Below are positions 24,854 through 45,834 of a DNA stretch of 57,157 nt, piece after piece. The translations under genes were made by a program, and so were the position numbers. How positions within the stretch are numbered: the first letter of the stretch is position 1; every line of letters begins with the position of its first letter. The notes below the pieces were generated by a model. It did no database searches. It was not told the origin of the DNA and saw nothing but the letters and a program-made list of their open reading frames with translations. The stretch is taken from contig NZ_JAUYUD010000112.1 in the NCBI RefSeq assembly GCF_030692605.1, forward strand, positions 1 through 57,157. The letters are read 5' to 3'. Origin of the DNA: Lutibacter sp. GTDB lineage: Bacteria; Bacteroidota; Bacteroidia; Flavobacteriales; Flavobacteriaceae.

Positions 24854-24886
24854 AATCAATGGTTTAGAGTTTATACTAAAATACAA

Positions 24887-26659: not shown

Positions 26660-29290
26660 TTAGGGAACGATTGGATTCCAGTTTAATTCTTTTTCATTTA
26701 ATTTGTTATCCATCATTTCAAAAACTTCTTCTACTAAATTGTCGTCTAGATATGGACCTAAAACATCCCAAAATGAATCAGAGCATAATGACCATCTTTC
26801 AGCATAATATGCAATTAAATTAAGAGTTAAAGGGATACCTGTATTAGCACTTAAAAAAAACCAAGGAACATAGCTAAAATCAACATTTTTCATAAATTCT
26901 AATGACCAAGGAAGACTTCTATTCCTAGCTAAAGACTCCTTATCCCATTTACCCCAATATTTTTTAATTAATTCAAGAGACCAAGGAATATTTTCATTTT
27001 CACTTAAAATTTTAAAATCTAAATTTTGTATGTATCGTTCAATTAATTCTAATGACCAAGGGAGGCTTTCATTTTTACTTAATAACTTCCAATCCCACTT
27101 TTTCAAGTATCTTTCAATTAATTCTTCTGACCAGGGAAGGCTTTTGTTTTTACTTAATTGAGCCCAATTCCAATTTTTTTTGAAAGCTTCTATAAAATCT
27201 AAACTCCAAGGAAGATTTTCATTACTACTCAAGAAATACCATAAATCTCTGTTTACATATTTCTTAATTAGTGTCTCAGAACAAGGAGAAACTATTGAAC
27301 CATTCCAGCTCCATTTATGTTTGTTTCTTTCTTTAAAATCTTTAGAATATGACGTAATTATAAATTTATTTAAAAAATACCAATCCCATTTATCACTAAA
27401 TTTTTCAATAAAAGATTCTGACCAAGGTAAACTCCTGTTATAAGATAAAACATCCCAAACCCATTTATCATTATATTTATCTATTAAATCTTCTGACCAA
27501 GGAAGATTACTATTTGTGCTAAGAGATTCCCAAACCCATTTATTTAAATATTTGTCAAAGAAAAATTTTGACCAGGGTAGATGACTATTTGAACTCAAAC
27601 ATCTCCAATCCCATTTATCTTCATATTTATCTATTAAATCTTCTGACCAAGGAAGATTCTTGTTATTACTTAAAAATTCCCAACCAATATATTTTCCATA
27701 TATTTCAATAACATCGAGTGACCAAGGAATATTCTTATTTTTTGTAAAATCATTCTTCCAATCCCATTTGTCTTTGTATCTATAAATTAATTCTTTTGTT
27801 ATTAATAAGTTTTCATTACCACTTAGCAAATCCCAAGAAAAATTATCCTTATACTTAGCAAGTAATTGTTCAGATAGAGGGTAATGCCTAGATATTAAAT
27901 CAATAAAAAGGGTTAGATTTTTTTGAAAGATTTCTTTTACTAGGTGTACTTCATTTTTGGTTGGAAGTTTTAGGAGCGTGTCTATAATAATTGGATTGTT
28001 AAATGTTTCTGCAAATTGTATTATTTCTGGGGCTATTTTAATATCATTTAAAGTTAGTTTATTTTTTAAATATAATCCTTCTAAAGATTTTACTCTGCTT
28101 AATGCTACATACGCCTGGCCACTTGCAAAAGTACCAGTGCCAAAATCTACCATTAATTTATCAAATGTTAATCCTTGACTTTTATGGATGGTAATTGCCC
28201 AAGCTAATTTTAAAGGATATTGTTTAAAAACACCCAAAATTTTCTGTTCAATTTTTCGTTGTCCTCTATTGTATGAATAACTAGTGTTTTCCCATTCTAC
28301 TTGTGCAATTAAATGAATTTCTCCATTTTCTAATTGTACATATATTTCATCCTCTGAAAGCTCGTGTATTTTAGCTATTGTGCCATTGTACCATCTTTCT
28401 TCTCTATCGTTTTTTATAAAAATAACCTGCGTTCCTTCTTTTAAGCATAAATATTCATCGGTAGGGAATTTTTTTTCTTCAAACTCATTATAAATTTCTG
28501 CTTGGAAGGTGTATTGCTTTGATACTAATTTCTTTAGTTGGTTGTCATTCACTATTTTAGCAGCATCATTACGAGTGGTAAGATTAATTACAAATTCATT
28601 ATCTAATGTTGTAGTGTCTTTACAGACTCTTTTGTTAATTTCTGATATTTCGGCATTTGTAATTGTTTTATTTCTAACTTTATCTAACAAATCAATAAAA
28701 GATTGATTTGATTGACGGTATACCGTTTTTAGTTCAATTGAAGGCAATTCAAATTCTTTAAATACCCACGCATTGAAAAAATATGCAGTGCCATAATGTT
28801 CCTCTATGATTGCTTTATCATCCTTGCCTACAACGATAGGTTCTAACTGAAACATATCACCAACAAAAATAACTTGTTTACCACCAAAGGGCAGGTTTGG
28901 ATTCCCACCATTTTTGCGCAATGAAGCATCAATACCATCTATTAAGTCAGCTCTTACCATTGATACTTCATCAATTATAAGTGTGTCGGCTTCTAAAATT
29001 AATTGCCCTTTATCTGAATTTATCGGAAAAGTTATTATTTCATTATCATTAGGAAGTAAAGGTCTTATTGGAAAATTAAAAAGGGAATGTATTGTTACAC
29101 CACCTACATTTACAGCAGCAATACCTGTTGGAGCAACTACCATAAAATTTTTAGCAATATTTTTTACAATGTATTTTAAAAAAGTAGACTTACCAGTACC
29201 GGCTTTTCCTGTTAAGAAAAATGATTGATTTGTGTGTTCAATGAGTTCGAGTGCTTTTAAAAACTCTTTATTTTTAAGATCCATTTCCAT
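26660..29290 (-). CDS. Pif1/RecD-type helicase with C-terminal 25-residue W-repeat array
   Basis: An 876-residue protein. Residues 1-430 are a superfamily 1B helicase: Walker A LTGKAGTGKST (about 22-32), TGIAAVNVGGVTIHSLF, Walker B TLIIDEVSMV, GDMFQLEPI, and motif VI region ITIHKSQGLTFDKL...YVALSRVKSLEGLYL. From about residue 465 to 850 come some 14-15 repeats of about 25 residues with consensus LPWSexLIdkYxdKWdWxxL (four or so further residues complete the unit). No transmembrane part. It starts 36 nt after the pAgo stop. The repeats probably form a solenoid for protein or nucleic-acid binding (inference). Confidence 0.85.
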   Translation of the reverse strand: MEMDLKNKEFLKALELIEHTNQSFFLTGKAGTGKSTFLKYIVKNIAKNFMVVAPTGIAAVNVGGVTIHSLFNFPIRPLLPNDNEIITFPINSDKGQLILEADTLIIDEVSMVRADLIDGIDASLRKNGGNPNLPFGGKQVIFVGDMFQLEPIVVGKDDKAIIEEHYGTAYFFNAWVFKEFELPSIELKTVYRQSNQSFIDLLDKVRNKTITNAEISEINKRVCKDTTTLDNEFVINLTTRNDAAKIVNDNQLKKLVSKQYTFQAEIYNEFEEKKFPTDEYLCLKEGTQVIFIKNDREERWYNGTIAKIHELSEDEIYVQLENGEIHLIAQVEWENTSYSYNRGQRKIEQKILGVFKQYPLKLAWAITIHKSQGLTFDKLMVDFGTGTFASGQAYVALSRVKSLEGLYLKNKLTLNDIKIAPEIIQFAETFNNPIIIDTLLKLPTKNEVHLVKEIFQKNLTLFIDLISRHYPLSEQLLAKYKDNFSWDLLSGNENLLITKELIYRYKDKWDWKNDFTKNKNIPWSLDVIEIYGKYIGWEFLSNNKNLPWSEDLIDKYEDKWDWRCLSSNSHLPWSKFFFDKYLNKWVWESLSTNSNLPWSEDLIDKYNDKWVWDVLSYNRSLPWSESFIEKFSDKWDWYFLNKFIITSYSKDFKERNKHKWSWNGSIVSPCSETLIKKYVNRDLWYFLSSNENLPWSLDFIEAFKKNWNWAQLSKNKSLPWSEELIERYLKKWDWKLLSKNESLPWSLELIERYIQNLDFKILSENENIPWSLELIKKYWGKWDKESLARNRSLPWSLEFMKNVDFSYVPWFFLSANTGIPLTLNLIAYYAERWSLCSDSFWDVLGPYLDDNLVEEVFEMMDNKLNEKELNWNPIVP

Positions 29291-29326
29291 AGCTTTATTG
29301 GTATAACTTGTTTTTAATAAAGATTA

Positions 29327-31396
29327 TTACAAAAACCATAATTTATTATTTGAAGTATCATTTGGAGTCGCATTAAAACGAGGTGCTATTTGTGCCAACA
29401 TTTCGGGATATTTTATAGTTACCGGAACATTTTGTTGTCGCATTGATTTCCAATACAAACGGCTAAATTGATAGACTTGCGTTAATAGTTTTAAAATAAC
29501 TTCATTATCTTCTAAAGCATTTTTATCAGGGCTACTGATATTTATTTTGATAGGAAAGTGGTAGCCTTCAGATGCTGGGTATTTGTTATTTGAATCATAT
29601 CTTGCATTGTTGAATAATAGATATTTGTTATATCCTATGCGAATGTAAGTACCACTTTTTGGCATTAAATTACCGTCCCAATTTAAATCGTAGGCAAATA
29701 TATCTTCACTGTCGGTTTTATTGATATTTAAAATATACAGAGGAACATTAAGGTTTAAAGCGTTCATTCCCTGTATAATTGGCTGTAATTCTTCATAGCG
29801 CATTTCTTTATAGAAATGTATCACTACTTTATCAGCTTCGGCAACTGAGGTAAAATTGCGAATAGCGTTGCAAATACTCCCAGCTAATAGTTTAGATTCA
29901 TTGTTTGTAAAGTACTCAAAACGGCTAAATAGTCCATTGTTTTGAAAGCTAAAAGCACTTGCTATATAGCGTCTGTTTTCATCTCTATTTGTAAATGCAC
30001 CTACACCAATTACTAATTCTTTTTGGCTTGTTACTGCTAATTTCCAAGGTACACCACCTAATTTAGCGTGTAATGCTAATGAGATGTTATTTAAGTGCCA
30101 TTGGTACTTGTTTATATTTTTATGTAGGTCGTTGTGGTCTATTACTTGTGATACAATGTTTTCATTTAGTAATAATTCTTTTACACGATAGTAGATTATT
30201 TTTTCTTCGGGATCTTGTGTGTATTTACTTACGGGACTTATAAAAAAAGCGGCGTATTGTACATTATCATCAAATGTTAAGGTTCCTAATTTTTCTTCAA
30301 TTTCAGGAATTGGATTGGATAGATTTTTATATTCTATAAAATGATGACTTGCTACTTCTATTTTTAAATTTAAAAAATTTTCAATGCCTATAAAATTACT
30401 CCCTGTTCCATTTTTTAAATGATTGTATAATAGTTTAATAGTTGCTTGGTGTGATTGGTGATGTATAAAGAAAATTTTAATGTTAGGGTTAGGAGGGCGG
30501 CGATAAGGTTTGAAATTTGGTAAATCAAATTTGGGAACTTTACCTGTGTTTTTATTGCCATATTCTAACGTGCCTAACTCTTGTTTTATGTGGTTGATTC
30601 TGTTTAGTGGAACATCTATAAATTCATCATCATAGATAGGTATTATTTGTTTAAACTCTGAGGTAATCAATTCTCGGTTTTTAAAAGCATTTAAAATTGT
30701 GAGGTATCTTTTATAACGGTTTTCGCGAGAAGGTGCTTCTAAAGGAATATTTAATGCACGTGCTAAGTTTAAATTGAAAATTGGGTATGCTTCATTAAAA
30801 TTGATACTATTGTAAAAATCTTCTTTTTCAGGGGTATCTATTTTTATTTGATAGTTGTATATTTTAGTACCAATAATTGTTTTTTTAATAAGGGTGGTAT
30901 CTTCAATTTCAGCTACTGACTTTTTTAATATTTTAGATGTACCATCGTAGGAAACTACTAATTCAGGATACTCAGTAACTTGTGCGAATTGAATTTTTAG
31001 TGAAAATTTATAGTGTAATTGGTAATGAGGATTGTTATTGTTTTTACCGGGTATCCAAACTTGTGTATCACCAACAAAGTTTTTATCTGTTACATATCCT
31101 TTGTTTAAAAAGTGCCGTTTTACCTTATTTTTTAAATATTGCTTGTAAATAGACAATTCTTGGCCGAACATTGCTATTTGAATAGGAATGCCATTTGTTG
31201 AAGGTGTATCAAATGTTGTATATATGTATTCGGTTTCCTTTGGGTTTACCTTTGGAAATGCTTTTAAAATATTTTCACTTAATTTTGAACTGTGTATTCG
31301 ATGGCTTCCTTCAATATCATTTAGTGTAAAATAAAACGTAGGTTTATTTTCTGGCCAATCAAAGGATAGGATGTTGCATTTTAAGTGTTCTTTCAT
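29327..31396 (-). CDS. Prokaryotic Argonaute (long form, PIWI apparently inactive)
   Basis: A 689-residue protein. A MID-like domain begins near residue 304 (IKIFFIHHQSHQATIKLLYN). The PIWI domain is marked by HAKLGGVPWKLAV (about 444-456), the fold-defining pAgo motif. The length leaves room for N and PAZ-like domains. The catalytic positions look substituted: ELVIGVGAF where active pAgos have an Asp after VIGx, FYKEMR where HRDGR-type Asp is expected, and YPEML near the C-terminus in place of the final Asp/His. It therefore probably binds guide and target without slicing. It lies in an operon with a GIY-YIG nuclease and Mod/Res/DndD/HerA genes. Confidence 0.85.
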   Translation of the reverse strand: MKEHLKCNILSFDWPENKPTFYFTLNDIEGSHRIHSSKLSENILKAFPKVNPKETEYIYTTFDTPSTNGIPIQIAMFGQELSIYKQYLKNKVKRHFLNKGYVTDKNFVGDTQVWIPGKNNNNPHYQLHYKFSLKIQFAQVTEYPELVVSYDGTSKILKKSVAEIEDTTLIKKTIIGTKIYNYQIKIDTPEKEDFYNSINFNEAYPIFNLNLARALNIPLEAPSRENRYKRYLTILNAFKNRELITSEFKQIIPIYDDEFIDVPLNRINHIKQELGTLEYGNKNTGKVPKFDLPNFKPYRRPPNPNIKIFFIHHQSHQATIKLLYNHLKNGTGSNFIGIENFLNLKIEVASHHFIEYKNLSNPIPEIEEKLGTLTFDDNVQYAAFFISPVSKYTQDPEEKIIYYRVKELLLNENIVSQVIDHNDLHKNINKYQWHLNNISLALHAKLGGVPWKLAVTSQKELVIGVGAFTNRDENRRYIASAFSFQNNGLFSRFEYFTNNESKLLAGSICNAIRNFTSVAEADKVVIHFYKEMRYEELQPIIQGMNALNLNVPLYILNINKTDSEDIFAYDLNWDGNLMPKSGTYIRIGYNKYLLFNNARYDSNNKYPASEGYHFPIKINISSPDKNALEDNEVILKLLTQVYQFSRLYWKSMRQQNVPVTIKYPEMLAQIAPRFNATPNDTSNNKLWFL

Positions 31397-31485
31397 AGGT
31401 TTTAAAATCTTTTTCTTTTAATTTTTGTTTCACTTAGTAGTTTCGAGTTTTATTTAATGAGCTGTTTTAAAAATTTCAAGATATT

Positions 31486-31950
31486 TTAGGTTTGAATTTT
31501 ACTATATTTCGATGCATTTGTTTTATCATTAAATTTAGGGTATCTCCCGAATTTTTCAATATATGCAGCCCAACAGTCGTATTCGCATTTTGCTACTTCT
31601 CCCATAATTCTTAAATCATTTGGGGAAGGAATTTTATTATTACATTCAAAAGAGTGTATTGCAACATAGATATTATTTTTTATAATTTCATAGTTTTCAT
31701 ACTCATATAAGAATCTGTCAGCACCACCGTGATTGGTTCTCTTCTTTTTAATTGTTGTATCAAATTGATTTAAACGACTTTTTAAACCTCCTTTAGAATT
31801 TGTCATTCCAATATATTCTAAATCTTGAATGAAATTAAACTCATTCAGTAATTTATCAGAAACGGCAATACAATATATACCTATATAACGTATACCTTCA
31901 AGCTCATTCCTGTTTTCCCATTTTATCCAATTTGTAAATTTGTTTTCCAT
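31486..31950 (-). CDS. GIY-YIG nuclease
   Basis: A 154-residue single-domain protein with the two motifs: GIRYIGIYCIA (GIY, about residues 19-29), then DLEYIGMTN (YIG, about 43-51), the arginine in GLKSRLNQF and a glutamate-bearing helix (GEVAKCEYDCWAAYIEKFGR). It would be a small Mg-dependent endonuclease. It sits between the HerA-like ATPase and the inactive-looking pAgo. The simplest idea is that it supplies the cutting activity the Argonaute lacks (inference). Confidence 0.8.
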   Translation of the reverse strand: MENKFTNWIKWENRNELEGIRYIGIYCIAVSDKLLNEFNFIQDLEYIGMTNSKGGLKSRLNQFDTTIKKKRTNHGGADRFLYEYENYEIIKNNIYVAIHSFECNNKIPSPNDLRIMGEVAKCEYDCWAAYIEKFGRYPKFNDKTNASKYSKIQT

Positions 31951-31987
31951 AGTAAATTATTAGCAAAGAGTTTTATTGAAATATATA

Positions 31988-33577
31988 TTAAATTAAATGC
32001 CTAACTTTTATTATTTTGTATTTCTTACCTATTCCTAAAGCCATTGCAGTTGGGTTTTTCATTAATAGCTCTCCCTTTTGTAAATTGGATATAGCTTCTT
32101 TTATATCTTGAAATTCTCTGCCACTTACACCAAATAAATCCTTAATGACGCTGTCATTTATTGATTGCTGCTTCATTATTAAAGGATATTGTGCATTTGC
32201 ATAAAAGTCGAAATAGTCACTTTTATAACTATCCATATTTTGTGTGGCTAAAATAATACTCAACCCTTTATTTCTTCCTGTAGCAATTAAATCACGTAAT
32301 GGTTTATTGTCAAAACCTAACATATAATGTGCTTCATCAATTATTGTGAAATGACGTAATTCAACGCATTCATCATCTACCACTTGTTTGGGAAGCGTTT
32401 CATAAATTGAATTTAACTTTGAAACTATAAAGTATACTATTGCTTTGGCAATAGGGCCATCTTTTGGGAAGCCATCCATTTTTACAATGTAACTGTCTCT
32501 AATTAAATCTATTCTATCTTCATTTGAGAAAAGGTTTGTTCTTATTAATTGTTTTAATACGGATTTTATACTGTCATCTTTATCTCGATCTTTTTCTGGT
32601 TGTGCTTTGGTATATTCTTTTAAAATTAAGTCAAAGGTTATGGCATTATTATGGGTTACTTTATAACTATTTATAATGGCTTCCGATAAACGATTGCTCA
32701 TATTAGCACTAATGCGTGCATTGTCGATTGCACACAAAGCATTTGCTAATTCAGTCGAGTATAAGTTTATTTCATTTTGGGCTTTACCTATAAAATTTTT
32801 AAATGGATTGAAAGGCAACGGAGCAGATATAGGGTCTAAAATAACACTGCTATCTGTTTCAAAGTAAGCTAACCAATGATTGTTGGCAGGATCTGAAAAC
32901 TCGCCTTTATAATCAAATAATAAAAAGTTAACGGGGTAATTACTATCTACGGATAATGAGCGTATTTCATTCAATAATACAGCCAATAAGTTTGATTTTC
33001 CTGAGCCAGTAGTTCCTGCTATTAAAATTTGTGTATTTGGAATTTCTTTACCGTTTAAATTTAATAAAGCAGGTATATCATCTTCATAACTACCAATGTT
33101 TAAGTTTAGAAATGGTATGTTTCCACTGTTTTTATTGTTACCCGTACTTGCTGTATTTAATAACCAATCTTCAATGACGCCTTCTTGCATTAATAATTTT
33201 TGTCCTCTAAAAATCTCGGCATTTACAACTTTGCTTTTATCTCTGTTATTTTCCCAATCGATGCTAACATTTTGATACCTCAATTTAATTAGTGCAAAAA
33301 ATATTGGGCTTAAATTGTGCAAGGTGAAAAGAGTTTCAAATATTCTATTACTGCCTAAGGTAATATGATCAATTTCATTAATTGTTCTCTTTGATTCAGT
33401 TGATAAACCGGCCAATAGACACATTCTCATTATTTTATTGTTACTTAAACCGATATTTGGTTTATTGTCTGAATAAAATTTTGAATTTACTCTATTTTCA
33501 ACAAGGCTTTTTAAATCGGCAATTGCTTCATTAAGGCCATCCGCTTGTCTAATATTTTGTATGTTAATTGTACTCAT
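31988..33577 (-). CDS. HerA/FtsK-like ATPase with DndE-like N-terminus
   Basis: A 529-residue protein. Residues 1-100 are small, helical and DndE-like (NKIMRMCLLAGLSTESKRTI, call tentative). Then comes a HerA-type motor with Walker A AGTTGSGKSN (about 187-196), FLLFDYKGEF, Walker B FTIIDEAHYM (about 405-414) and the arginine-finger-type region GRNKGLSIILATQNMDS. HerA motors form hexameric DNA translocases. It follows the DndD-like gene by 9 nt. No DndA/B/C sulfur-modification genes are present, so a role in phosphorothioation is not implied. Confidence 0.8.
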   Translation of the reverse strand: MSTINIQNIRQADGLNEAIADLKSLVENRVNSKFYSDNKPNIGLSNNKIMRMCLLAGLSTESKRTINEIDHITLGSNRIFETLFTLHNLSPIFFALIKLRYQNVSIDWENNRDKSKVVNAEIFRGQKLLMQEGVIEDWLLNTASTGNNKNSGNIPFLNLNIGSYEDDIPALLNLNGKEIPNTQILIAGTTGSGKSNLLAVLLNEIRSLSVDSNYPVNFLLFDYKGEFSDPANNHWLAYFETDSSVILDPISAPLPFNPFKNFIGKAQNEINLYSTELANALCAIDNARISANMSNRLSEAIINSYKVTHNNAITFDLILKEYTKAQPEKDRDKDDSIKSVLKQLIRTNLFSNEDRIDLIRDSYIVKMDGFPKDGPIAKAIVYFIVSKLNSIYETLPKQVVDDECVELRHFTIIDEAHYMLGFDNKPLRDLIATGRNKGLSIILATQNMDSYKSDYFDFYANAQYPLIMKQQSINDSVIKDLFGVSGREFQDIKEAISNLQKGELLMKNPTAMALGIGKKYKIIKVRHLI

Positions 33578-33586
33578 AGCGTTTAT

Positions 33587-35587
33587 TTAATCAGTAATTG
33601 TAATACCAAAATAACCAGGAATAATTTTGGTAGATTGATTCTCTATGTCACGATGTAACGTGTATGTTTTAGATATAAAGGGCGCTATATTTTCAAACTC
33701 ATTACCTTTTCTAATTTCACTATCGGAACTTAATAAAATGGTTTGATGTGATAATTGAGGGAAGTAATGCTCTAAAACTGCAGCTCTGCTTTCTTCGCTT
33801 AAAACCCCCATTACAGTATCTATCATTACAGGAGGGTCATAATCACCAAATTCGTGTAAGGACTTTAACAATACTTGAATCACAATTTGTTTTGAGGCAG
33901 TATTTAAATGATTCAAATATATTTCATTGCCAGATTTGTGAAATATTTTGAACGTTAAATTTGATAAATTTTCAGATAATTCAACTCTGTCAATTACATC
34001 TTTATATGCAGCAAGAATAATGTTTAAATCCTGCTTCATTTTCAATTCAATTTGTTGTTTTTTTACAATTAACAATTGATTTGCTACATCTTCAAAAAAC
34101 GCTTTTAATTTACCAAGCGTATCATATTTTGGGTCGGGTTCTTGACTAATTTGAATATCGAATTGATGTATTCTTTTATCAATTTTTAAAATTTCAGCGT
34201 CTACTTCTTTAATCTGAGCTTCATATTTTTTGATATTGGCTTCATTCTCTTCATAAGCCTTCAGTATAGAATAATCTTTGCCAGAAACTTGCGCTTTCAT
34301 TTGTTCTATAAAAGTTTGTTGCGCTGGGATTTGTTGAATTGCCGTAGCCAATTCAACTTTTTGTTGTTCTAACATTGGAAAAGCATTTATGCTTTTAAGC
34401 GTTAATAAGCTTTCCAATGCCTTTACGTCTGAATGCTCCAAAAAAGCATACACATCATCATTGTTTGCGTTTTTTGAGGTGTTGACAACATAGTCAACTA
34501 TATTATCAATATTTAAGGAATTTAGAATTAAGTGATTTTCTTCCAAATATTTAGCTATTGATTTACTTATAGATTCAATTTGTTCAACCGATAAATTTAT
34601 GTTGTTATTTTGAAGCACTTCTTCTTTAATCTTTGAAATTAATTGTATTTCAGATTTTAAGGCTTCTTGTACTTTAGGAATACAAACGTTTATTTCAATA
34701 TCTTTTAAGAAGGCAGTTAATTCATCACGAAACTCTTCTTCTTTTTTTAGGGTATATAGAATTTGATTATTAGCTTGTTCAATTTTGTTTTTAATCGTAG
34801 TTTCTTCATTTAAACCGCTTTTTAAATTATCACATAATTCTTTATTTTGAACTGAATAATTAAGTACATTTCCTAAATTTACTTTTAGATTTGAGAGTAT
34901 TCCTTTTTGTTCATTTTTTTTATCTACCAGTTCTAAATATTCTTTCTTTTCATTTTCTACTTCCAGGCGTTGGGCTGTTTTTGTTTGATATAGGCTTTCT
35001 GCTGCATTTGCCAATTGCATATACTTATTGAAACCCATAACATTTTCAATATTTTCTTTAATAACTCTATTCAACTGGTCTTCTTTTAAAAGATTTCCAG
35101 CTTCCATTGCATCGAATAAAAAATACCTGCTTAATTCTTGTGGTAAATTTGCTTTAATAATCTTATTCACTTGTGCTTCTTGTTCAACTCTTTGTGCTGC
35201 CGGAGTTGCTGTGCCATAATTAAATATTGCCCCATTCATATTAAGTTTAACTGCTTCAACAGGCAAGCCGGCAGGGTTTAGCATATATACCCGGGTTAAA
35301 ATATAATCCTGTTCTTGATTTAATACTTTGCCTGAGAAATGCAATTCTAATTCAATTTTAGCTTCAACTCTACCAACAGCCCCTGCATTTAGTAATTCCC
35401 TAAAGGTTTTTGCAGAATTGATATTTAAACCATACAAGGCACCATAAATTGCTTCAAAAAATGTTGTTTTACCACCACCATTAACACCACCAATTAAGAT
35501 AATTGGTTTATCATTTTCAACATTAATATCTAAATCTAAGTCTAAATAAGTTTTAAAATTTTTGGCTTTTATCCTTTTAATTAACAT
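33587..35587 (-). CDS. DndD-like SMC/Rad50-type ATPase
   Basis: A 666-residue protein with N-terminal Walker A IGGVNGGGKTTFFEAIYGAL (about 32-51), a long coiled-coil centre broken by a hinge-like region, and a C-terminal Walker B PPVMIDTVMGVLSEESR, matching the DndD arrangement (PxxIDTPLGRLD). The start MLIKRIKAKNFKTYLDLDLD is typical of SMC-like ATPases. DndD normally belongs to phosphorothioation operons; here it stands with type III Mod/Res and pAgo. It probably senses DNA structure and gates nuclease activity (inference). The preceding small gene ends 2 nt upstream. Confidence 0.85.
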   Translation of the reverse strand: MLIKRIKAKNFKTYLDLDLDINVENDKPIILIGGVNGGGKTTFFEAIYGALYGLNINSAKTFRELLNAGAVGRVEAKIELELHFSGKVLNQEQDYILTRVYMLNPAGLPVEAVKLNMNGAIFNYGTATPAAQRVEQEAQVNKIIKANLPQELSRYFLFDAMEAGNLLKEDQLNRVIKENIENVMGFNKYMQLANAAESLYQTKTAQRLEVENEKKEYLELVDKKNEQKGILSNLKVNLGNVLNYSVQNKELCDNLKSGLNEETTIKNKIEQANNQILYTLKKEEEFRDELTAFLKDIEINVCIPKVQEALKSEIQLISKIKEEVLQNNNINLSVEQIESISKSIAKYLEENHLILNSLNIDNIVDYVVNTSKNANNDDVYAFLEHSDVKALESLLTLKSINAFPMLEQQKVELATAIQQIPAQQTFIEQMKAQVSGKDYSILKAYEENEANIKKYEAQIKEVDAEILKIDKRIHQFDIQISQEPDPKYDTLGKLKAFFEDVANQLLIVKKQQIELKMKQDLNIILAAYKDVIDRVELSENLSNLTFKIFHKSGNEIYLNHLNTASKQIVIQVLLKSLHEFGDYDPPVMIDTVMGVLSEESRAAVLEHYFPQLSHQTILLSSDSEIRKGNEFENIAPFISKTYTLHRDIENQSTKIIPGYFGITITD

Positions 35588-35589
35588 AG

Positions 35590-35808
35590 CTATTTAATTT
35601 TTTGAAGTGCCTTATCAATAATTTTTATTACAGTTTTATCATCAATGTCCTCATTGCTAATTTTTTTCTCGTGAAATTCTTTCATCAACGAATCCTTTAC
35701 CCAATCAAAATCTAATTGATGTTTTTCACAAAGTTTTTCAATTAATGCTATGTCATCTTTGCGAATGCCATAATGAAGAAATGTAGTATCTAAGCCTTTG
35801 TTTTTCAT
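35590..35808 (-). CDS. Small protein associated with the modification operon
   Basis: The start at 35808 gives MKNKGLDTTFLHYGIRKDDI, 72 residues, 10 nt after the Res stop. An ATG 7 codons earlier (35829) overlaps Res by 11 nt and is also possible. It is all-helical and charged (ALIEKLCEKHQLDFDWVKDS, ending KIIDKALQKIK). Its fixed place between Res and DndD suggests a structural subunit. I recall similar small proteins labelled as DNA modification system-associated, without a known function. Confidence 0.65.
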   Translation of the reverse strand: MKNKGLDTTFLHYGIRKDDIALIEKLCEKHQLDFDWVKDSLMKEFHEKKISNEDIDDKTVIKIIDKALQKIK

Positions 35809-35818
35809 AATATAATTT

Positions 35819-38113
35819 TTATAGTGCAATAGGATTGAACATATCCCAACCCTTTAAATCTTTTGTATTGGTAATTTTATTGTTGCAATACCACCAATTT
35901 GTTAAACTATTTACTTCTTTACCAATTAATATTCCTCCAATAGTTTTTAATCCTTTACTATTTCTAACTGTAATAAAATCTACTAAAGCATTGTGTTTAA
36001 GATGTGCATTAGCAGGATCACTGCCTGCCGTTTTAGTATCAAATAGACTAGTAACATTACCCTTACTCAGTATTACAAAATCAACATAAAATAGACTTTG
36101 TTTACCTAAATAATCGACATAGGGAACTGCAAAATGTTCTTTTGCTTTTTCTCCATTTTTGTACCACCAATGTAAATGGTCTTTATTTTCCTCTAAAAAC
36201 GCTGCAAACTTAACTTCGGGTAATGATGCTCTTTTGTATTCATAAAAAGGTTCTAAAGCGTGTCTTTGTATTGATTCTTTCTCATCATATAATTCATTGT
36301 AAATTCTTTCAATAGGAACTTCCCATTGGTAGTTTTGAACATCTTTAGTGGCATTATTTGATTTTTGATCTTGCATTTCCTGATAGCGCTCTTTTGCTTT
36401 TTCTATTAACTCAATGAAGATGGGTTGATTTTGGTCGTACAACATTATTTTAATAGCATCGTATTCTATAATTTCGAAATAGTCTTCAAAAAAGTATTTC
36501 ATAGCCCCTTCCAAAACTGGCGTACTATCTACAGTTGCATAGGGTGCTGTTAATGATCTACAAAAATCTCTGAATAATCTTGCCAATTCACTTGGCGTTT
36601 TTGCAAAACGAACATTTTCTGTAACTAAAACAATTTGCTCTTCTCCAGACAATCGTACATTTTCTGGAATAACAATTTCAATTGAATTGACTTCAATATT
36701 TATAAAACGTTTTTGAAGTAATTTTTTATTACTTTCAAAATAGTTTTCAGAACCCAATTCTCTTTTTAATTCCCAATTTAATTCTGCAATTTCATATAAT
36801 GCTTTTCTGAAGGCGGCTCCTAAACGATTACGAACTATTCGTGTATTGATATAAGTAGAATTCAAATGAACTGGCATATAGTTTTCTATTCTACGTGCTT
36901 TGTTCATTGTAATATAGTTCATATCGTCTTTAACGATTTCGATCTGATTTTTACTTAAATTCGTAAAAACATACCCTTGGTTCAGCAGCGAATTTGGATA
37001 ATGTTTTTGTTCCGGCATACGTAAAATTCTGCCTACGGTTTGAATGGTGAACGTAGTACTCTTTAATTCCCTGAAAATTAATAAAACGCCTGCTCTTGGA
37101 CAATCCCAACCTAAAGCAATGGCTTGTTTGAATAACAAAACCTCGACCATATTATTTGGTTTTTCAATATCTTCAACATTGTCTTTTCTACCAGATAACC
37201 AAACAGCCAGCTTATTGTTATTGATTGTAATGTTATATTTTACCTCCAAATTCTGTAATACCACATCAATGTATTTTTCATCATCAGCGGTATTGTTATC
37301 ACTTGTATCGTTAGGCAATTGTATAAGTAAAAGTGGATTTATATTCACTCCTAAACTTTCATATGCTTGACGTAATTCTTCTCTTTTTTCTAAAGCTTGC
37401 TCCAATAAAATTTCTTCTAATGATCGACCTTCTTGTTTTACCGTATCCAATGCTGGATTTAAGATAATGCCTTCTTTTATCATTTCTTCAGCAATAACAT
37501 CTTGGCGCTCTACAAAAGTTGTATAATCACTGTTCGTGGTTGGTGTAGCCGAAACCCTAATTTCTACTTTTGGATATATTTTTTGCAATACTTCATTGGC
37601 TCTTTTGGCTGTTTTAGTATTGGCAAACATATGCTCTTCATCGATAATTACTATGATTTCCGTGTCGTTTAGCTTTGCTTTGTTAATGAAACTGTATAAA
37701 TTTTTATTGGTTTCATTTTCCCTAATCATTGTATTTTTCTCTTTGTTGATACTTTCCCAATTGACAAATAACACTTCATTTGGCTGCAATTCATTATCTA
37801 TTACATCCTCAAAGAAAATAGGTTTTATTGAACGCATCTCAGCAAAATAACCTTTCAAGGCATTGTAACTTTGTATGTATAATTTGTTTGGAGCAATCCA
37901 AATGAAAGCTGCTTTTCGTTTTTCAAGCTCGTAACGTTCTGGTAATTCTTCGCAAAACTTGTTTAATAACGAAGCCATCATCACTGTTTTACCCGAACCA
38001 GTAGGTGCTTTGAAAATTAAATTTTGTCTTGCACCTGGTCGTTTTAATAACTTATACAATTTTTGAGAAAGGTCGTTGACTGCTTCGTCTTGGTATTTTT
38101 TTAATTGTATCAT
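35819..38113 (-). CDS. Type III-like restriction enzyme Res subunit (helicase-nuclease)
   Basis: A 764-residue superfamily 2 protein. Walker A FKAPTGSGKTVMMASLL (about 38-54), DEAH-type box IIDEEHMFA, SATPTTNSD (motif III), and QTVGRILRMPEQ (motif VI). The C-terminal 100 residues carry a PD-(D/E)xK-type nuclease: FYVDFVI then SLFDTKTAGSD. It is shorter than classical type III Res subunits (about 900-1000 residues). The gap to the Mod stop is 3 nt, and the gene order matches Mod-Res operons. It would translocate and cut DNA lacking Mod methylation. Confidence 0.85.
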   Translation of the reverse strand: MIQLKKYQDEAVNDLSQKLYKLLKRPGARQNLIFKAPTGSGKTVMMASLLNKFCEELPERYELEKRKAAFIWIAPNKLYIQSYNALKGYFAEMRSIKPIFFEDVIDNELQPNEVLFVNWESINKEKNTMIRENETNKNLYSFINKAKLNDTEIIVIIDEEHMFANTKTAKRANEVLQKIYPKVEIRVSATPTTNSDYTTFVERQDVIAEEMIKEGIILNPALDTVKQEGRSLEEILLEQALEKREELRQAYESLGVNINPLLLIQLPNDTSDNNTADDEKYIDVVLQNLEVKYNITINNNKLAVWLSGRKDNVEDIEKPNNMVEVLLFKQAIALGWDCPRAGVLLIFRELKSTTFTIQTVGRILRMPEQKHYPNSLLNQGYVFTNLSKNQIEIVKDDMNYITMNKARRIENYMPVHLNSTYINTRIVRNRLGAAFRKALYEIAELNWELKRELGSENYFESNKKLLQKRFINIEVNSIEIVIPENVRLSGEEQIVLVTENVRFAKTPSELARLFRDFCRSLTAPYATVDSTPVLEGAMKYFFEDYFEIIEYDAIKIMLYDQNQPIFIELIEKAKERYQEMQDQKSNNATKDVQNYQWEVPIERIYNELYDEKESIQRHALEPFYEYKRASLPEVKFAAFLEENKDHLHWWYKNGEKAKEHFAVPYVDYLGKQSLFYVDFVILSKGNVTSLFDTKTAGSDPANAHLKHNALVDFITVRNSKGLKTIGGILIGKEVNSLTNWWYCNNKITNTKDLKGWDMFNPIAL

Positions 38114-38116
38114 TTT

Positions 38117-40063
38117 TTATTTAAGCGTTTCTTGATTTAACAAATTTTCTTTTTCACCCAATATCTCATCGTCTAAAACTGGAATAAGTTCTCTTTTCTT
38201 TTTAGGCAACACATTTTGGTATGCCTTGTATATAGCATCTGGTAATGCACATAGGGTTATATAATTTAATACTTCTTCAAAGTCTTCAGTATAAGGATAT
38301 TGACCATTGCTGAATACATAAACTTTAATAAGATTTTGATTTTTTTTATTGATATTCAATTTTTTAATAATTACGATACTCTCTTCAATCATCATATCAT
38401 CATAAATCATAATGAATTGTTTTGTGGAGTTCTTGTATATCGATATCCAACTATTTTTAGATACATATTCATCAGTAATGTTAATAAAACAATCTTCTTT
38501 GATGCATAATAATTCAGTAGCAAACTTGGTTAATTCTTTTTTATCTTTTAAACTTTTATTCCTACTAACAAACTCATTTTTATAGTAAAGTAAATTATTA
38601 CTTTTTAACCCATCAATTTCTTCATTTTTAGTATTAACATAGCCATTAATTACTCGTTTTATACGCTCATAAGTTACTTCTTCGCAAATATTATTTTCGT
38701 TATTGGTTACAATAATACATTGGCGATTTCCACCGTCTTCATCATTCAATTCCAAGGTTGCGTGGAGCGTTGTTCCAGTACCGGCAAAGAAATCTAAAAT
38801 TAAACTGTTTTTTTTGCTCGTTGCTCTTAATATTTCACTTATGAGATCAATAGGTTTTGGGTAAGGAAATTTTTCATCTTTAAACATCTCTTTTAGTAAA
38901 GTAGAACCTTTGGTCGTAAAAAAAGATTTTTCAGTCCAAATTGTTGGAATATCACTACCAACAGTTTTATTTTCTCCAAATATCAAAGTTGGCAGTTCAT
39001 TTTCAGTTCCAACAACAATTAAATCACCACTTTTTATTTTTTTAATAACCCCTTCTGGTAGATATTGTACACTATATTGATTTGGGTTTACCGAAGATAC
39101 ATTAAGACTTATCTTAATATACCCCTTTTCCCAATCTTTCAACAAACGGCTAGGAATAAGTCGCCAAACGCAATCTTTACCCTTACTAGTAATTGGCCAT
39201 AATGCAACTGTTCCTTCTGGAGCCTCACTATAATCATATTTAAAACTAGAAAGTTCATCGTTATAAATTCCTTCTTTAACTCTACTAGCTAATGATTTAC
39301 CTATTCCATATAATCCACCTGTTTTCTTGTCTATGAAAATTGGATAAACTTGATTTGGTCTTTGAATTTTATCAAAAGTACTTAAAGTTAATCCTTCAAA
39401 AGGACTTCTACTTGTTCCACCTGAAAACTTTAAAGGATTAGGATTAAAGTCATACGGAGTAACAAAAATTATATATTCCTGAAGGTAATTAAACCCGCCT
39501 GATGGTTTACCACCAGATGTTTGAACAGTAACACAAACCACTTGTTTACTTTGAAACAAACCTTCACAAAGAGGAACAAGATTGTGGACTTCTTGATATC
39601 CAATACTAATTGCAATTATTCCATTTTCAGACAATAAACTTTTAGCTGCTTTCAATCGTTTATGCATAAAAGCAAGCCACTTGCTATGTCTATATCCATC
39701 TTCTTTATCAACATATTGGTCATTATATATGAAATCTTTATTTCCAGTATTGTAAGGTGGGTCGATATAAATAACATCAAACTTTTTTTCGTGAGTGAAA
39801 TTAAGGACCATTAACGAATGAAGATTATCTCCTTCAATTAATATATGATTTGGAAATTCACGACCTTTAAAAATTGTTTTACTTTTATCTTCTTTTAATA
39901 CAGGTAATTTTATGCGAAGTTCTTCTTCTACTTTTTCAATTTTGTCTTCCCAAACTAAACCATATTCCTTTTTGGTATTTATCAAATTTATTAGATATGC
40001 ACGCTCATCTTGAGAGATGCCGTCAAGTTGTTTTATTTTTGAGATTAGGTCTTGTTTGTTCAT
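38117..40063 (-). CDS. Type III-like DNA methyltransferase Mod, copy 1
   Basis: A 648-residue beta-class N6-adenine/N4-cytosine methyltransferase: DVIYIDPPYNTGNKDFIYND (catalytic DPPY, about residue 100) precedes the AdoMet motif LILDFFAGTGTTLHATLE (about 430). The region between (about 160-400) is the target-recognition part. Its first 60 and last 200 residues closely match the neighbouring copy 2, while the centre differs, indicating duplication followed by exchange or divergence of specificity. It sits 12 nt after copy 2 and 3 nt before res. Confidence 0.88.
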   Translation of the reverse strand: MNKQDLISKIKQLDGISQDERAYLINLINTKKEYGLVWEDKIEKVEEELRIKLPVLKEDKSKTIFKGREFPNHILIEGDNLHSLMVLNFTHEKKFDVIYIDPPYNTGNKDFIYNDQYVDKEDGYRHSKWLAFMHKRLKAAKSLLSENGIIAISIGYQEVHNLVPLCEGLFQSKQVVCVTVQTSGGKPSGGFNYLQEYIIFVTPYDFNPNPLKFSGGTSRSPFEGLTLSTFDKIQRPNQVYPIFIDKKTGGLYGIGKSLASRVKEGIYNDELSSFKYDYSEAPEGTVALWPITSKGKDCVWRLIPSRLLKDWEKGYIKISLNVSSVNPNQYSVQYLPEGVIKKIKSGDLIVVGTENELPTLIFGENKTVGSDIPTIWTEKSFFTTKGSTLLKEMFKDEKFPYPKPIDLISEILRATSKKNSLILDFFAGTGTTLHATLELNDEDGGNRQCIIVTNNENNICEEVTYERIKRVINGYVNTKNEEIDGLKSNNLLYYKNEFVSRNKSLKDKKELTKFATELLCIKEDCFINITDEYVSKNSWISIYKNSTKQFIMIYDDMMIEESIVIIKKLNINKKNQNLIKVYVFSNGQYPYTEDFEEVLNYITLCALPDAIYKAYQNVLPKKKRELIPVLDDEILGEKENLLNQETLK

Positions 40064-40075
40064 TTTATATAATAA

Positions 40076-41950
40076 CTATTTTATATTTTCTTCATCCATA
40101 ATATCTTCCTCTAATACCGGAATAATTTCTCGTTTCTTTTTAGGCAACACATTTTGGTAGGCTTTGTAGATAGCATCAGGTAAGGCACAAAGGATAACAA
40201 AATCTAAAACTTCTTCAAAATCTTCTGTGTAAGGATATTGCCCATTACTAAATACATATACTTTAATAGGATTTATATTTTGCTTATTTTCATTTAATTG
40301 CTTAATGATTGCTATGCTTTCTTCAATCATTACATCATCATAAATTATTATAAATTGTGAATTATTATTTGCAAAAATTTTATGCCATTTTTCTTTTGAA
40401 GGAATTTCTTGGTAACAATCTTCTTTTATGCACAATAATTCCGTTGCGAACTTTGTGAGTTCTTTTTTATTTTTAAGTGTTTGATTTCTGCTAACATACT
40501 TACTTTTAAAATAACGTAAATTATTATTTCTCAAGCCATCTACCGCAACCTCTTTCGCATTTGTATAACCCTCAATTACTCTTTTATTGCGTTCATAAGT
40601 TACTTCCTCACATATATTATTCTCGTTGTTTGTTACTAAAATACATTGGCGTTTACCTCCATCTTCTGCATTAAGTGCCATTGTTGCGTGAAGTGTAGTA
40701 CCTGACCCTGCGAAGAAATCGAGAATAATAGAGCTTTGATTTGATATTGAGTTAATTAACCTTTCAATTAAATCAGTAGGCTTTGGGTAATCAAATTTGC
40801 CATTCCCTAGAACTTCTATTAGTTCATTACCACCATCACTTTTAGTACTTATAATTGACCTTAATAAAAACTCATTAACCTCATTTAGGTATTTAATTGT
40901 ACTTGGCTGTGTATTTTCATCTTTTGCAAACCAAATTTTACCACATATAAAACTGCCATCATGTAGCTCAATAACATTGTTATAATCAAGCATTCTATCA
41001 AATGTGTCTTTTGTAAATCGCCATCCTTTTTCTGGAACTTTCGCTGGTTTTCCTGTCTTAGGATGTAAAACATCATATCGTGGACCAATAGTTTTTGCAT
41101 TTGGCCAACTTACATTTATTTTACCCCATAAGTGATAATCTTTATCAAAGGAATTATATAATGTGATTCCGCGATCATAGTTGTTTTTTTTATAAAATTT
41201 TTTAATTTCTTTTTCTGCTTCTGCAATAGAAATCTTTTTTTTAGCTAAAGTTTTTGCAAAATTATTTACATCTTCTATACCATCTTTTTTTTGTACAAAT
41301 TGGTGTTGAGTAGTGTAATTTTTAGCATATAATAAAACATATTCGTGAACATTCCCAATTCCCTTATCATTTTTAGGAATTCTTTTATTCCAAATTAGCT
41401 GCTCTATGAAATTCTTTTCTAAAAATATTTCGTCTAATAAAAGTCTTAAATTATGAATTTCATTCTCATCAATACTTATAAAAATAACGCCAGTTTCATT
41501 TAATAATCGTTTTGCAATACGCAAACGTTTATCCATAAACGAAAGCCATTTGCTGTGGCGGTAACTATCTTCTTTATCTACAAAACTATCGTTATATTTA
41601 AAATCTTTGTTACCCGTATTGTATGGAGGATCAATGTAAATCACATCAATTAAACCTTCGTGTGTAAAAGTTAGAGCTGTTAATGCGTGCAGGTTGTCGC
41701 CTTCAATTAAAATATGGTTAGGAGCCTCCGCCGCACCCAAAGGGGGAACTGGTGCAAGGATTGCTTTTTCTTTTATTTCTTTTAATACAGGAAGATTTTC
41801 TCTTAATTGTTCCTCCACATCTTCAGGTTTGTTTTCCCAAACCAAGCCGTATTTTTTCTTGGTGTTTACCAAGTTAATTAAATAGGCACGTTCGTCTTGT
41901 GAAATAGCGTCTAATTGTTTTATTTTTGAGATTAAGTCTTGTTTGTTCAT
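40076..41950 (-). CDS. Type III-like DNA methyltransferase Mod, copy 2
   Basis: A 624-residue beta-class methyltransferase: VIYIDPPYNTGNKDFKYND (DPPY) then IILDFFAGSGTTLHATMA. The N-terminus MNKQDLISKIKQLDAISQDE differs from copy 1 by one residue over this stretch, and the C-terminal 200 residues are also near-identical in pattern (ALPDAIYKAYQNVLPKKKRE in both). The central recognition region is different (LIWNKRIPKNDKGIGNVHEY). First of the two mod genes; the ORF6N regulator lies 13 nt upstream. Confidence 0.88.
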   Translation of the reverse strand: MNKQDLISKIKQLDAISQDERAYLINLVNTKKKYGLVWENKPEDVEEQLRENLPVLKEIKEKAILAPVPPLGAAEAPNHILIEGDNLHALTALTFTHEGLIDVIYIDPPYNTGNKDFKYNDSFVDKEDSYRHSKWLSFMDKRLRIAKRLLNETGVIFISIDENEIHNLRLLLDEIFLEKNFIEQLIWNKRIPKNDKGIGNVHEYVLLYAKNYTTQHQFVQKKDGIEDVNNFAKTLAKKKISIAEAEKEIKKFYKKNNYDRGITLYNSFDKDYHLWGKINVSWPNAKTIGPRYDVLHPKTGKPAKVPEKGWRFTKDTFDRMLDYNNVIELHDGSFICGKIWFAKDENTQPSTIKYLNEVNEFLLRSIISTKSDGGNELIEVLGNGKFDYPKPTDLIERLINSISNQSSIILDFFAGSGTTLHATMALNAEDGGKRQCILVTNNENNICEEVTYERNKRVIEGYTNAKEVAVDGLRNNNLRYFKSKYVSRNQTLKNKKELTKFATELLCIKEDCYQEIPSKEKWHKIFANNNSQFIIIYDDVMIEESIAIIKQLNENKQNINPIKVYVFSNGQYPYTEDFEEVLDFVILCALPDAIYKAYQNVLPKKKREIIPVLEEDIMDEENIK

Positions 41951-41963
41951 TGTTACTTTTCAA

Positions 41964-42500
41964 TTATTTTTTAAAACCAACAGATTTTCTATTTTGTTGT
42001 TCCAGTAGTTGTTGGTCAATTAATTGTTGGTTTTGTATTAGATTTTGATCTTTGCCTAATAAATAATTTAAAGCTTGGTTAATGTCTTTAAAATTTATAT
42101 TCATCTGCTTTTCAAGTATTGCAATGTTTTCTTTTAAGTCTTTATAATCGGCTAAATGTTGTCTTAAAACAACAAAAGCTCTAATTACTGCAATATTCAC
42201 TTGTATGGCTTTTTTACTATTTAGTACACTTGAAAGCATTGCTACGCCTTGTTCGGTAAAGGCGAAAGGCATATATCTAGTACCTCCGTGACTTGAGGTC
42301 GCAGATTGCGTCCTCAAATTTTCGTATTCATCTTTAGAAAGTTGAAACATAAAATCTTCAGGGAATCTGTCAACATTTCTTCTGACAGCTTCTTTTAATC
42401 TCTTAGTTTCAGTTTCGTACATTTCAGCAAGGTCGAAATCGAGCATAATTCTTTGACCTCTTATCTCGTAAATTTTGTTTTGAATGAGTTGTAATTCCAT
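41964..42500 (-). CDS. ORF6N (KilA-N-type) DNA-binding protein
   Basis: A 178-residue protein with the ORF6N domain in the first 90 residues (IYEIRGQRIMLDFDLAEMYE, VRRNVDRFPEDFMFQLSKDE, YMPFAFTEQGVAMLSSVLNS) and a coiled helical C-terminus. ORF6N proteins are DNA-binding and often come from phages or sit at the head of type I/III restriction operons. It is the first gene of the island operon, 13 nt before mod copy 2, and may regulate it through the inverted repeat at 42588-42608 (inference). Confidence 0.8.
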   Translation of the reverse strand: MELQLIQNKIYEIRGQRIMLDFDLAEMYETETKRLKEAVRRNVDRFPEDFMFQLSKDEYENLRTQSATSSHGGTRYMPFAFTEQGVAMLSSVLNSKKAIQVNIAVIRAFVVLRQHLADYKDLKENIAILEKQMNINFKDINQALNYLLGKDQNLIQNQQLIDQQLLEQQNRKSVGFKK

Positions 42501-44637: not shown

Positions 44638-45551
44638 TGGATGCTATGTTTTTTGTTAAGAAAGGCCAAAGGATCATACGCCAAAAAGCAAGCTCTTGAT
44701 ATATCTTTTCCTGATTGGTCCACTTCAAGGTTGTAGGATTCTTTTAAATAATTTGCCACTGCTTTAAAAAATACTTGATGCGTGGCTTGCGAAAGGTCAA
44801 TTTTGATTATCCATTTTAATCCATCACCGGAAGGCGAGGTAAATAACATTTCAGTTTCAAAGTATTCATCTTGAAGTAATTGATTTTTAACTTCATTTAT
44901 ATTTTCTAAATGGTCAAAATCAATGGTTATTAAAGAAGAGTGCCTGATTAAATTGTCCTCATTTCTTCGTTCAAATTCACCGGAAAAAGTAACATAGTCA
45001 AAGTTGTTTGCTTTGTATATGCGTTTTTCTTTTGGGTCAGCAAATTCCCGCAATTTGATGGTAATGTCTTTATAGGCATCACTTTTAATTAGAGAATGTA
45101 TTTCGCTTAATTTGAGTGTTTTAAAAGGATATACATTGCGAATTGGCGCTTTGTAAAAACTGCATAAGGCAACCCAAGCATTATCAGGTTCACTTAACCA
45201 GTTTAAATCATCTTTTTTAGTGACTTCAGTCACTTCCAAATTAAGGTTTAGCGCACTATTTATTTTATGCAATAATGCTGTTTCATTTTCAGCTTTAAAA
45301 TAAAGCTGCGCAAAAACAAATACATCCCCTTTAAAAGTGTCTAATTCAATATCCGTATGAATTGCTATCTCATTTACAATACGTACTGATAAGGTTTCCT
45401 TATCCTTATTAAAAGGATTTTTCGTTATCCTGCAATCCCTACCCGAAAGGGTAAGGACTGTTTCATTAGGATAATACTGATGTAACACATAGGCGTAAAT
45501 TGTAAGTCCACTATGTGTTTTATCAAGAATTGCTTCTTTACTTAGTAGCAT
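44634..45551 (-). CDS. VirE_N domain (BT4734/BF3469-type) primase-like protein
   Basis: A 305-residue protein. The VirE_N domain at about residues 150-300 is marked by SLIKSDAYKDITIKLREFAD, FDYVTFSGEFERRNEDNLIR, SSLITIDFDHLENINEVKNQ and TSPSGDGLKWIIKID. The aspartates of ITIDFDH suit a metal site of the primase-polymerase fold. Overlaps DUF3987 by 4 nt and the preceding HTH gene by 14 nt, so a single polycistronic unit. Confidence 0.78.
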   Translation of the reverse strand: MLLSKEAILDKTHSGLTIYAYVLHQYYPNETVLTLSGRDCRITKNPFNKDKETLSVRIVNEIAIHTDIELDTFKGDVFVFAQLYFKAENETALLHKINSALNLNLEVTEVTKKDDLNWLSEPDNAWVALCSFYKAPIRNVYPFKTLKLSEIHSLIKSDAYKDITIKLREFADPKEKRIYKANNFDYVTFSGEFERRNEDNLIRHSSLITIDFDHLENINEVKNQLLQDEYFETEMLFTSPSGDGLKWIIKIDLSQATHQVFFKAVANYLKESYNLEVDQSGKDISRACFLAYDPLAFLNKKHSIQ

Positions 45552-45834
45552 TGCACTTAAAATTATGATTGTAATAATTGTTTTGCAAGATTTCTTCTAT
45601 GTCAGAAACTTTGTAATAAAATGTACCGCCAACCTTGCTGAAAGGCAATGTTCCGTTGTCACGAAAGCTTTGTAATGTTCTTGTGCTGATGTGCAATGTT
45701 TGCATTACGTCCTGATTGTCTAACCAAGTATCTTTCAATTTTTCAGCTCTCGATTGTCTGAATATTTCCAGACGAACTTTTAATTCTTTAATTTCCAGAG
45801 AGAGTGCCAGGATTAAGTCTGCTAATTCTATCAT
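45538..45834 (-). CDS. Helix-turn-helix DNA-binding protein
   Basis: A 98-residue protein with a coiled-coil N-terminus (LALSLEIKELKVRLEIFRQS) and an HTH_17 domain (DNQDVMQTLHISTRTLQSFR, GTLPFSKVGGTFYYKVSDIE). Excisionase/regulator type typical of Bacteroidota elements. Its start overlaps the stop of the preceding HTH gene by 4 nt. Confidence 0.78.
   Translation of the reverse strand: MIELADLILALSLEIKELKVRLEIFRQSRAEKLKDTWLDNQDVMQTLHISTRTLQSFRDNGTLPFSKVGGTFYYKVSDIEEILQNNYYNHNFKCNATK

Follow-up and report, generated by a model that had tools for sequence, protein, structure and literature searches.

The window analysed here, a 57,157-nucleotide stretch of a Lutibacter sp. genome (contig NZ_JAUYUD010000112.1), contains a run of ten co-directional genes at 26660-42500 on the minus strand, transcribed from 42500 toward 26660, next to an integrative element at the host gene mnmE. 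We consider it probable that the region represents an element that integrates at mnmE, bears a prokaryotic Argonaute (pAgo) gene, and has a swappable defence slot, filled here by a Mod-Res-Sp-DndD-HerA cassette, with a GIY-YIG-like gene and the pAgo gene forming a separate distal module. From 5′ to 3′, the ten genes encode an ORF6N-domain protein, two methyltransferases (Mod1 and Mod2), a helicase-nuclease (Res), a small protein (Sp), a DndD-like ATPase, a HerA-type ATPase, a GIY-YIG-like protein, pAgo, and a PIF1-like helicase. An initial annotation had described them as ten genes on one strand with short gaps, and all were recovered as such, spaced by 2 to 89 nt; an eleventh gene (26056-26643) begins 16 nt past PIF1. 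This reading divides what resembles a single operon into modules, each with a role that can be tested.

The mnmE element and its proposed defence slot

The genes of the element and its host site are as follows (all on the minus strand, with profile E-values in parentheses):

42856..44637, minus: DUF3987/PriCT-2 protein (DUF3987 1.7e-66, PriCT_2 8.6e-16)
44634..45551, minus: VirE_N/BT4734-like protein (PF08800 2.3e-23; PADLOC RTasVirE-PriCT2 3.2e-34)
45831..46133, minus: HTH_17 protein (PF12728 3e-12)
46318..47301, minus: DUF6617 protein (PF20322 2.6e-33)
47301..48404, minus: tyrosine integrase (Phage_integrase 7.7e-17, SAM_5, Arm-DNA-bind_5)
48449..48820, minus: second HTH_17 protein, at the integrase end (PF12728 6.5e-9)
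49027..50439, minus: mnmE, the host gene, with the element at its 3′ end (MnmE_helical 6.8e-54)

Wherever the available sequence covered the integrase end and the DNA beside it, mnmE was found at that end in the window and in 11 other loci; for five elements with a 55% identical integrase (L057-L061), no mnmE was seen in the available DNA. Tyrosine integrase elements at the 3′ end of mnmE (trmE/thdF) include integrating islands such as SGI1, from which the window element differs in gene content and phylum. In the layout we propose, the element would be inserted at the mnmE 3′ end, with its replication and integration genes followed by the defence slot and then by a pAgo unable to cut.

Across 299 genomes of the family, the DUF3987 gene (E 1e-60) was detected in 39 genomes and 42 copies. 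Among copies with at least 60% identity, 26 of 29 had a pAgo gene downstream on the same strand, at a gap of 465-17,686 bp, compared to 2 of 13 below 60% identity; the three close copies without pAgo are in G623 (where the contig extends <4 kb on the pAgo side), G521, and G641. Conversely, pAgo matched at 33 places in 30 of the 299 genomes, and 28 of these places share a contig with the DUF3987 gene, the other five comprising four weak matches below 28% identity and, in G505, a fragment of a gene divided over contigs. The pAgo gene therefore tracks the mobile element, not the five-gene core described below, and it would be present in nearly every member of this element family.

The interval between DUF3987 and pAgo is much less constant. 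An XRE-like regulator, named by eye, occupies it in 24 of the 28 elements (the window, G438, G624, and G505 being the four without it), and is the sole open reading frame (ORF) of at least 60 amino acids (aa) there in six elements (G662, G528:C8, G606:C5, G444, G508, and G421). Besides this regulator, no slot gene is common to more than 4 of the 28 elements. A Pfam search of ten chosen slot genes, four of which had no match, identified an Eco57I/MmeI-like restriction-modification gene and Abi_2, ApeA-like, or NERD-kinase proteins in other slots, and type I-like restriction-modification, Fic, and cytosine-methylase sets were recognized by eye in further ones. Only one of the 28 element-linked pAgo genes, that of the window, is separated from DUF3987 by an interval containing DndD and HerA.

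In G438, a genome of the same genus, the DUF3987 protein (85% identical) and the integrase (81%) again lie beside mnmE. There, the slot holds an Eco57I-type methylase, an AbiE-like pair (by eye), a PLD-superfamily 2 (SF2) helicase, and a 211-aa gene, followed by GIY-YIG-like and pAgo genes. G438 is thus a natural swap, with the same element, mnmE site, and GIY-pAgo end, and a different cassette. Between the two genomes, the GIY-YIG-like proteins are 79% identical but the pAgos only 47%, and in a 30-row pAgo tree, to be read with a long-branch warning, starred branches separate the two pAgos, which are not sisters.

The Mod-Res-Sp-DndD-HerA core

The ten genes of the run, in order of transcription, are as follows (E-values in parentheses unless bits are given):

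41964..42500, minus: ORF6N-domain protein, 178 aa (Pfam ORF6N 6e-38)
40076..41950, minus: Mod1, type III-like DNA methyltransferase, 624 aa (PF01555 1e-41; PADLOC MTase_III; DPPYN and FFAGSGTT motifs)
38117..40063, minus: Mod2, second tandem Mod, 648 aa (PF01555 1.2e-27)
35819..38113, minus: Res, SF2 helicase-nuclease, 764 aa (ResIII 4.6e-18; PADLOC REase_III; motifs GSGKT, DEEH, SATPT, and YVDF...DTK)
35590..35808, minus: Sp, small protein of Dnd-type systems (Sp-DndD), 72 aa (PF20306 4.8e-8)
33587..35587, minus: DndD-like ABC ATPase, 666 aa (AAA_23/DndD profiles; PADLOC DndD 5.7e-55, PbeC 6.3e-48)
31988..33577, minus: HerA/FtsK-type ATPase with a DndE-like N-terminal domain (residues ~1-142), 529 aa (DUF87 3.4e-12; PADLOC DndH 3.5e-29)
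31486..31950, minus: GIY-YIG-like small protein, 154 aa (motifs GIY at 24, YIG at 46, RLNQF at 59)
29327..31396, minus: full-length pAgo, predicted non-cutting, 689 aa (Piwi 1.8e-13; PADLOC pAgo PDLC02385, 848 bits)
26660..29290, minus: PIF1-like helicase with LPWS repeats, 876 aa (PIF1 3.2e-31)

Profiles bear out the identities first proposed for ORF6N, both Mods, Res, DndD, HerA, Piwi, and PIF1, with GIY-YIG recognizable by motif only. The nuclease motif of Res was assigned by eye, and the DndD-like ATPase scored 167.9 bits against TIGR03185, under its cut-off of 245.85.

To delimit the conserved part of the run, we scanned a collection of species genomes with an alignment of three HerA sequences and used the best 80 of the 184 relatives obtained. 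Flanks of up to 10 kb were taken; many of these loci are on short contigs, with at least 1.6 kb 3′ of HerA present in 69, and upstream counts use only loci with enough upstream DNA. By tblastn, the window proteins matched in 78 (DndD), 70 (Sp), 66 (Res), ~60 (Mod), and 3 (pAgo) of the 80 loci, and ORF6N, GIY-YIG, and PIF1 in none. Where upstream DNA was sufficient, DndD lay beside HerA in 72/72 loci (as a fragment only in L142, a disrupted locus), with Sp in 69/70, Res in 62/65, and Mod in 53/56. These loci come mostly from Bacteroidota or Ignavibacteria, with single cases in Alphaproteobacteria and Opitutales. Since the same order recurs across dozens of genomes, the arrangement is not due to chance: Mod-Res-Sp-DndD-HerA is a conserved five-gene unit. 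Two loci, L113 and L127, have Sp-DndD-HerA without Mod-Res in the available DNA, and the former suggests that Sp-DndD-HerA is able to pair with other effectors. In L113, other large genes precede Sp-DndD-HerA in place of Mod-Res.

The second Mod is peculiar to the window. Counting ORFs of at least 400 aa with a DPPY[NF] motif, 52 of 56 core loci had one Mod, four had none, and no locus had two, so the tandem Mods are a local feature. Compared in 50-column blocks, Mod1 and Mod2 are 54-86% identical at both ends and 19-31% identical across columns 150-400, and this diverged middle is probably the target-recognition region. The core also appears to be rare: HerA (E 1e-30) was found in only 3 of 395 sampled genomes from the phylum, including that of the window, and in the two others tblastn for DndD, Res, and Mod over 20 kb gave no match. 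The HerA proteins of L037 and L038, 50-54% identical, have the same N-terminal domain and no DndD, Res, or Mod match within 20 kb. HerA had no match in plasmids at E 1e-20, and none was confirmed in viral contigs. The gene 3′ of HerA varies among the 80 core loci and is often <50 nt away, resembling by eye an accessory slot; in L119, a 226-aa gene (11569-12249) that abuts HerA looks GIY-YIG/T5orf172-like by eye and matches PHROGs of no assigned function.

The HerA N-terminus resembles DndE. A structural model of its first 165 residues, aligned with 33 relatives, reached a predicted local distance difference test score (pLDDT) of 78.6, and the top 11 of its 41 Foldseek matches were all DndE (probability 0.72-1.00, template modelling score by target 0.55-0.67, E 0.08-1.4), pointing to a DndE-HerA fusion beside the DndD-like ATPase. 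The accessible part of Rakesh, Aravind and Krishnan 2024 (PMC10853773) describes a "clade-3" in which a DndD-related ABC ATPase adjoins DndE fused to HerA/FtsK. The window shares this arrangement, the clade being assigned here without a HerA tree, but differs in that the usual upstream genes are type III-like Mod/Res. For the related CxC systems, the same part of that paper lists cytosine methylases as well as an HKD-SF2 protein, and its PbeABCD and CxC-DndE systems likewise bring together a helicase-nuclease, a small protein, an ABC ATPase, and DndE; in the window, however, HerA carries DndE as a fusion, the ABC ATPase lacks a CxxC pair, and Res is of the ResIII type. The DndD/DndE-HerA kind is therefore already published, whereas type III Mod/Res is not named with it in what is accessible of PMC10853773, the paper this comparison covers (Krishnan 2020 lies outside it). 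In the literature covered, i.e., titles and the beginnings of abstracts, with most subscription papers and preprints outside this scope, we found no description of the element, of a link between pAgo and such an element, or of the full combination. What emerges is a defined system of five genes, Mod-Res-Sp-DndD-DndE/HerA, in which type III-like restriction is combined with scanning ATPases of the Dnd type.

DndC (TIGR03183) had no match in the window's genome, while 5 of 14 control genomes matched, none over the cut-off. A phosphorothioation system was rejected on this absence: without DndC in the genome, phosphorothioation is unlikely, and Mod methylation would be the likely mark. Judging by motifs and family resemblance, Mod would methylate host sites and so mark self, the DndD-like ATPase and DndE-HerA could form a DNA-scanning and pumping complex, Res would translocate along and cut unmethylated DNA, and the small protein may regulate or sense.

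The Argonaute gene and its GIY-YIG-like neighbour

In the window pAgo, GVGAF and HFYK occupy what we take to be the catalytic positions, where a slicer would have its cutting residues; these positions were placed by motif and without alignment to an active pAgo. GVGAF or GIGAF occurs in 29 of 30 pAgo rows (the exception, L092, is a truncated gene) and HFYK in 28, all but L063 and the truncated L092. An active slicer was rejected on these residues, and the protein is predicted to be a full-length pAgo with an inactive PIWI domain, as in long-B pAgos. Y402, K406, Q417, and K445, presumably the guide-end pocket, are invariant in 6/6 aligned pAgos.

The GIY-YIG label of the 154-aa neighbour is based on its GIY/YIG/R motifs, with no GIY-YIG family match in Pfam, PADLOC, NCBIfam, or PHROGs. 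A Bradyrhizobium homologue fragment retains GVY...YVGMSNS...RLKQF. An AlphaFold2 model (pLDDT 46.7) was too poor for a structure search, and a PDB profile search returned three chains, the best (E 0.0029) belonging to a structural protein. The protein may be a nuclease. Together, the two genes could provide guide-directed binding of invader DNA without cutting, with GIY-YIG possibly contributing the nuclease.

One alternative is that GIY-pAgo is a two-gene abortive infection system similar to BPAN, in which a dead pAgo carrying a guide would detect invader DNA and thereby free the GIY-YIG nuclease, with the core as an independent neighbour. The loss of slicing residues alongside an invariant putative guide pocket fits this model, as does the presence of GIY beside pAgo in two of the three GIY-bearing family genomes, in two different contexts. 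However, GIY was found in only 3 of the 299 family genomes versus 30 for pAgo, so most pAgos manage without it, and the third GIY genome, G500, had no pAgo within the 12.6 kb examined. A co-encoded effector nuclease that co-evolves with pAgo, as in BPAN, is not what we observe: GIY adjoins 2 of 28 pAgo genes and is discordant with the pAgo tree, i.e., the two genes have different histories. Finally, the pAgo gene of BPAN lies upstream of its partner, according to the accessible part of PMC10620215, and that of the window lies downstream of GIY. Overall, we regard this alternative as possible but doubtful.

In the accessible parts of PMC10620215 and PMC6299218, the long-B systems BPAN, BPAS, and BPAM have in common with the window family a full-length pAgo without slicing residues; the window family differs in having no known effector type throughout and in its link to a VirE_N/DUF3987 element. 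Part of the family may instead have a dedicated partner. A 235-244-aa protein is encoded close to pAgo on the same strand, at a distance of 10-75 nt and on either side, for 10 of the other 27 pAgo genes (11 of 28 rows, since one split gene fills two rows), including those of L039 and L048. It had no Pfam match, and was found neither in the window nor in the minimal-element clade L057-L061. What is accessible of Song 2023 (PMC10620215) notes an unexplained association of some long-B pAgos with og_54 VirE-N, plausibly the window type of element. A shared mobile element would be a simple account of dead pAgos beside VirE_N genes. In viral contigs, pAgo was found once, in L174 (IMG/VR; 39%), after 1075-aa and 218-aa genes; several genes around it appear phage packaging- or structural-like by eye.

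An alternative of comparable, limited likelihood is that pAgo would serve the mobile element itself, by excluding rival elements or plasmids or through element maintenance, with host defence a side effect. This would be consistent with pAgo in nearly all close elements, with the six elements in which the XRE-like ORF stands alone between DUF3987 and pAgo, and with the lack of any other widely shared slot gene; the recurrent 235-244-aa neighbour, a candidate dedicated partner, argues against it. Slightly more tentatively still, mnmE elements may keep a dead pAgo and the XRE-like regulator constitutively as their own guide-directed exclusion system and reload the neighbouring slot with host-defence cassettes, making pAgo an element gene first and effector-free in minimal elements. 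Such minimal XRE-pAgo elements allow pAgo to be tested alone.

Encounters between Argonaute and core

The proposal of an mnmE element with a swappable slot and a distal GIY-pAgo module also draws on the loci where pAgo meets the core. Of the 46 core loci whose downstream DNA extends over 7.5 kb or more, three had the element's DUF3987 gene in view (L087, L094, and L107), and intact pAgo was present in 2/3 of these compared to 0/43 without DUF3987 (Fisher p 0.003); for the 31 loci with the full 10 kb upstream as well, the counts were 2/3 and 0/28 (Fisher p 0.006). On the 30-row tree, read with the same long-branch warning, it takes 4 separate changes to place the four pAgos that accompany the core, which also fits separate modules.

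Several observations weigh against this proposal. The pAgo gene accompanies the core not only in the window but in L087, L092, and L094, and, reduced to a 65-aa stub that matches the L063 pAgo at E 2.7e-7, in L076. Since pAgo met the core in several separate lineages, a functional benefit of the pairing is possible. The DUF3987 genes of L087, L094, and L107 lie close to where the 10 kb flank ends, and the test above can therefore miss more distant elements. No element genes were found at L092 (5.2 kb upstream, short contig) or L076 (10 kb upstream), and a shared carrier does not explain these two loci. The gaps between HerA and GIY (37 nt) and between GIY and pAgo (89 nt) allow co-transcription of the three genes. 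The slot intervals of G528:C3 and G505 also contain chromosomal-looking genes. No distal attachment repeat was found in the window by searches for direct repeats, exact 14-mers, 10-13-mers against the distal side, and degenerate mnmE 3′-end patterns, leaving the far end of the element unplaced. For the DndE-like domain, the Foldseek E-values are 0.08 and worse, and across 33 HerA members Pfam assigned DndE to 2 (best E 0.0026) versus DUF2703 to 8 (best 0.0024). Every functional step of the mechanism outlined above is a prediction. At G438, a one-mismatch candidate mnmE-end site (C6:194007) lies on the same contig, among many chance matches. G649 was considered as an empty site and rejected, another integrase gene being located at its mnmE.

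The initial annotation had joined all ten genes into a single system, with methylation as the mark of self, DNA detected or moved by the SMC and HerA ATPases, and pAgo and GIY-YIG acting on unmarked invaders. Co-direction and short gaps agree with this, as do the encounters of pAgo with the core at no fewer than four places in the tree, including L094, where pAgo starts 72 nt past the HerA match. The part of that claim concerning Mod/Res with DndD/HerA holds, with the core recurring in the same order, but GIY-YIG, pAgo, PIF1, and ORF6N were found in 0, 3, 0, and 0 of the 80 core loci. DndD and HerA are not in the interval for 27 of the 28 element-linked pAgo genes, and G438 exchanges the core yet retains GIY-pAgo. 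The separate occurrence of the parts, raised in the same annotation as a possible refutation, is thus seen in part: pAgo follows the element, and the core usually lacks pAgo. We consider a single ten-gene system improbable. Least likely of all is a plain type III restriction-modification system beside which the other genes lie by chance: Mod (DPPYN and FxGxG motifs) and Res (SF2 motifs and, by eye, nuclease motifs) bear type III hallmarks, but the window has three extra conserved genes and two tandem Mods, Sp, DndD, and DndE-HerA come after Res in nearly all relatives, and Sp-DndD-HerA persists without Mod-Res in L113 and L127.

A promoter scan was uninformative, with 89 sites compared to a mean of 92.0 in shuffled sequence, i.e., chance level, and a terminator scan gave 12 sites compared to a mean of 6.7, 9 of the 12 being on the plus strand. 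PIF1 had no tblastn match throughout the searched pAgo and core loci, and its tail consists of ~25-residue repeats centred on LPWS, with eight exact copies of this motif. The distal side of the window (21386-24886) holds a transposase, a 212-aa gene, DUF6943, and an HTH_17 gene, and a gene resembling DUF6943 by eye lies downstream of the L064 pAgo.

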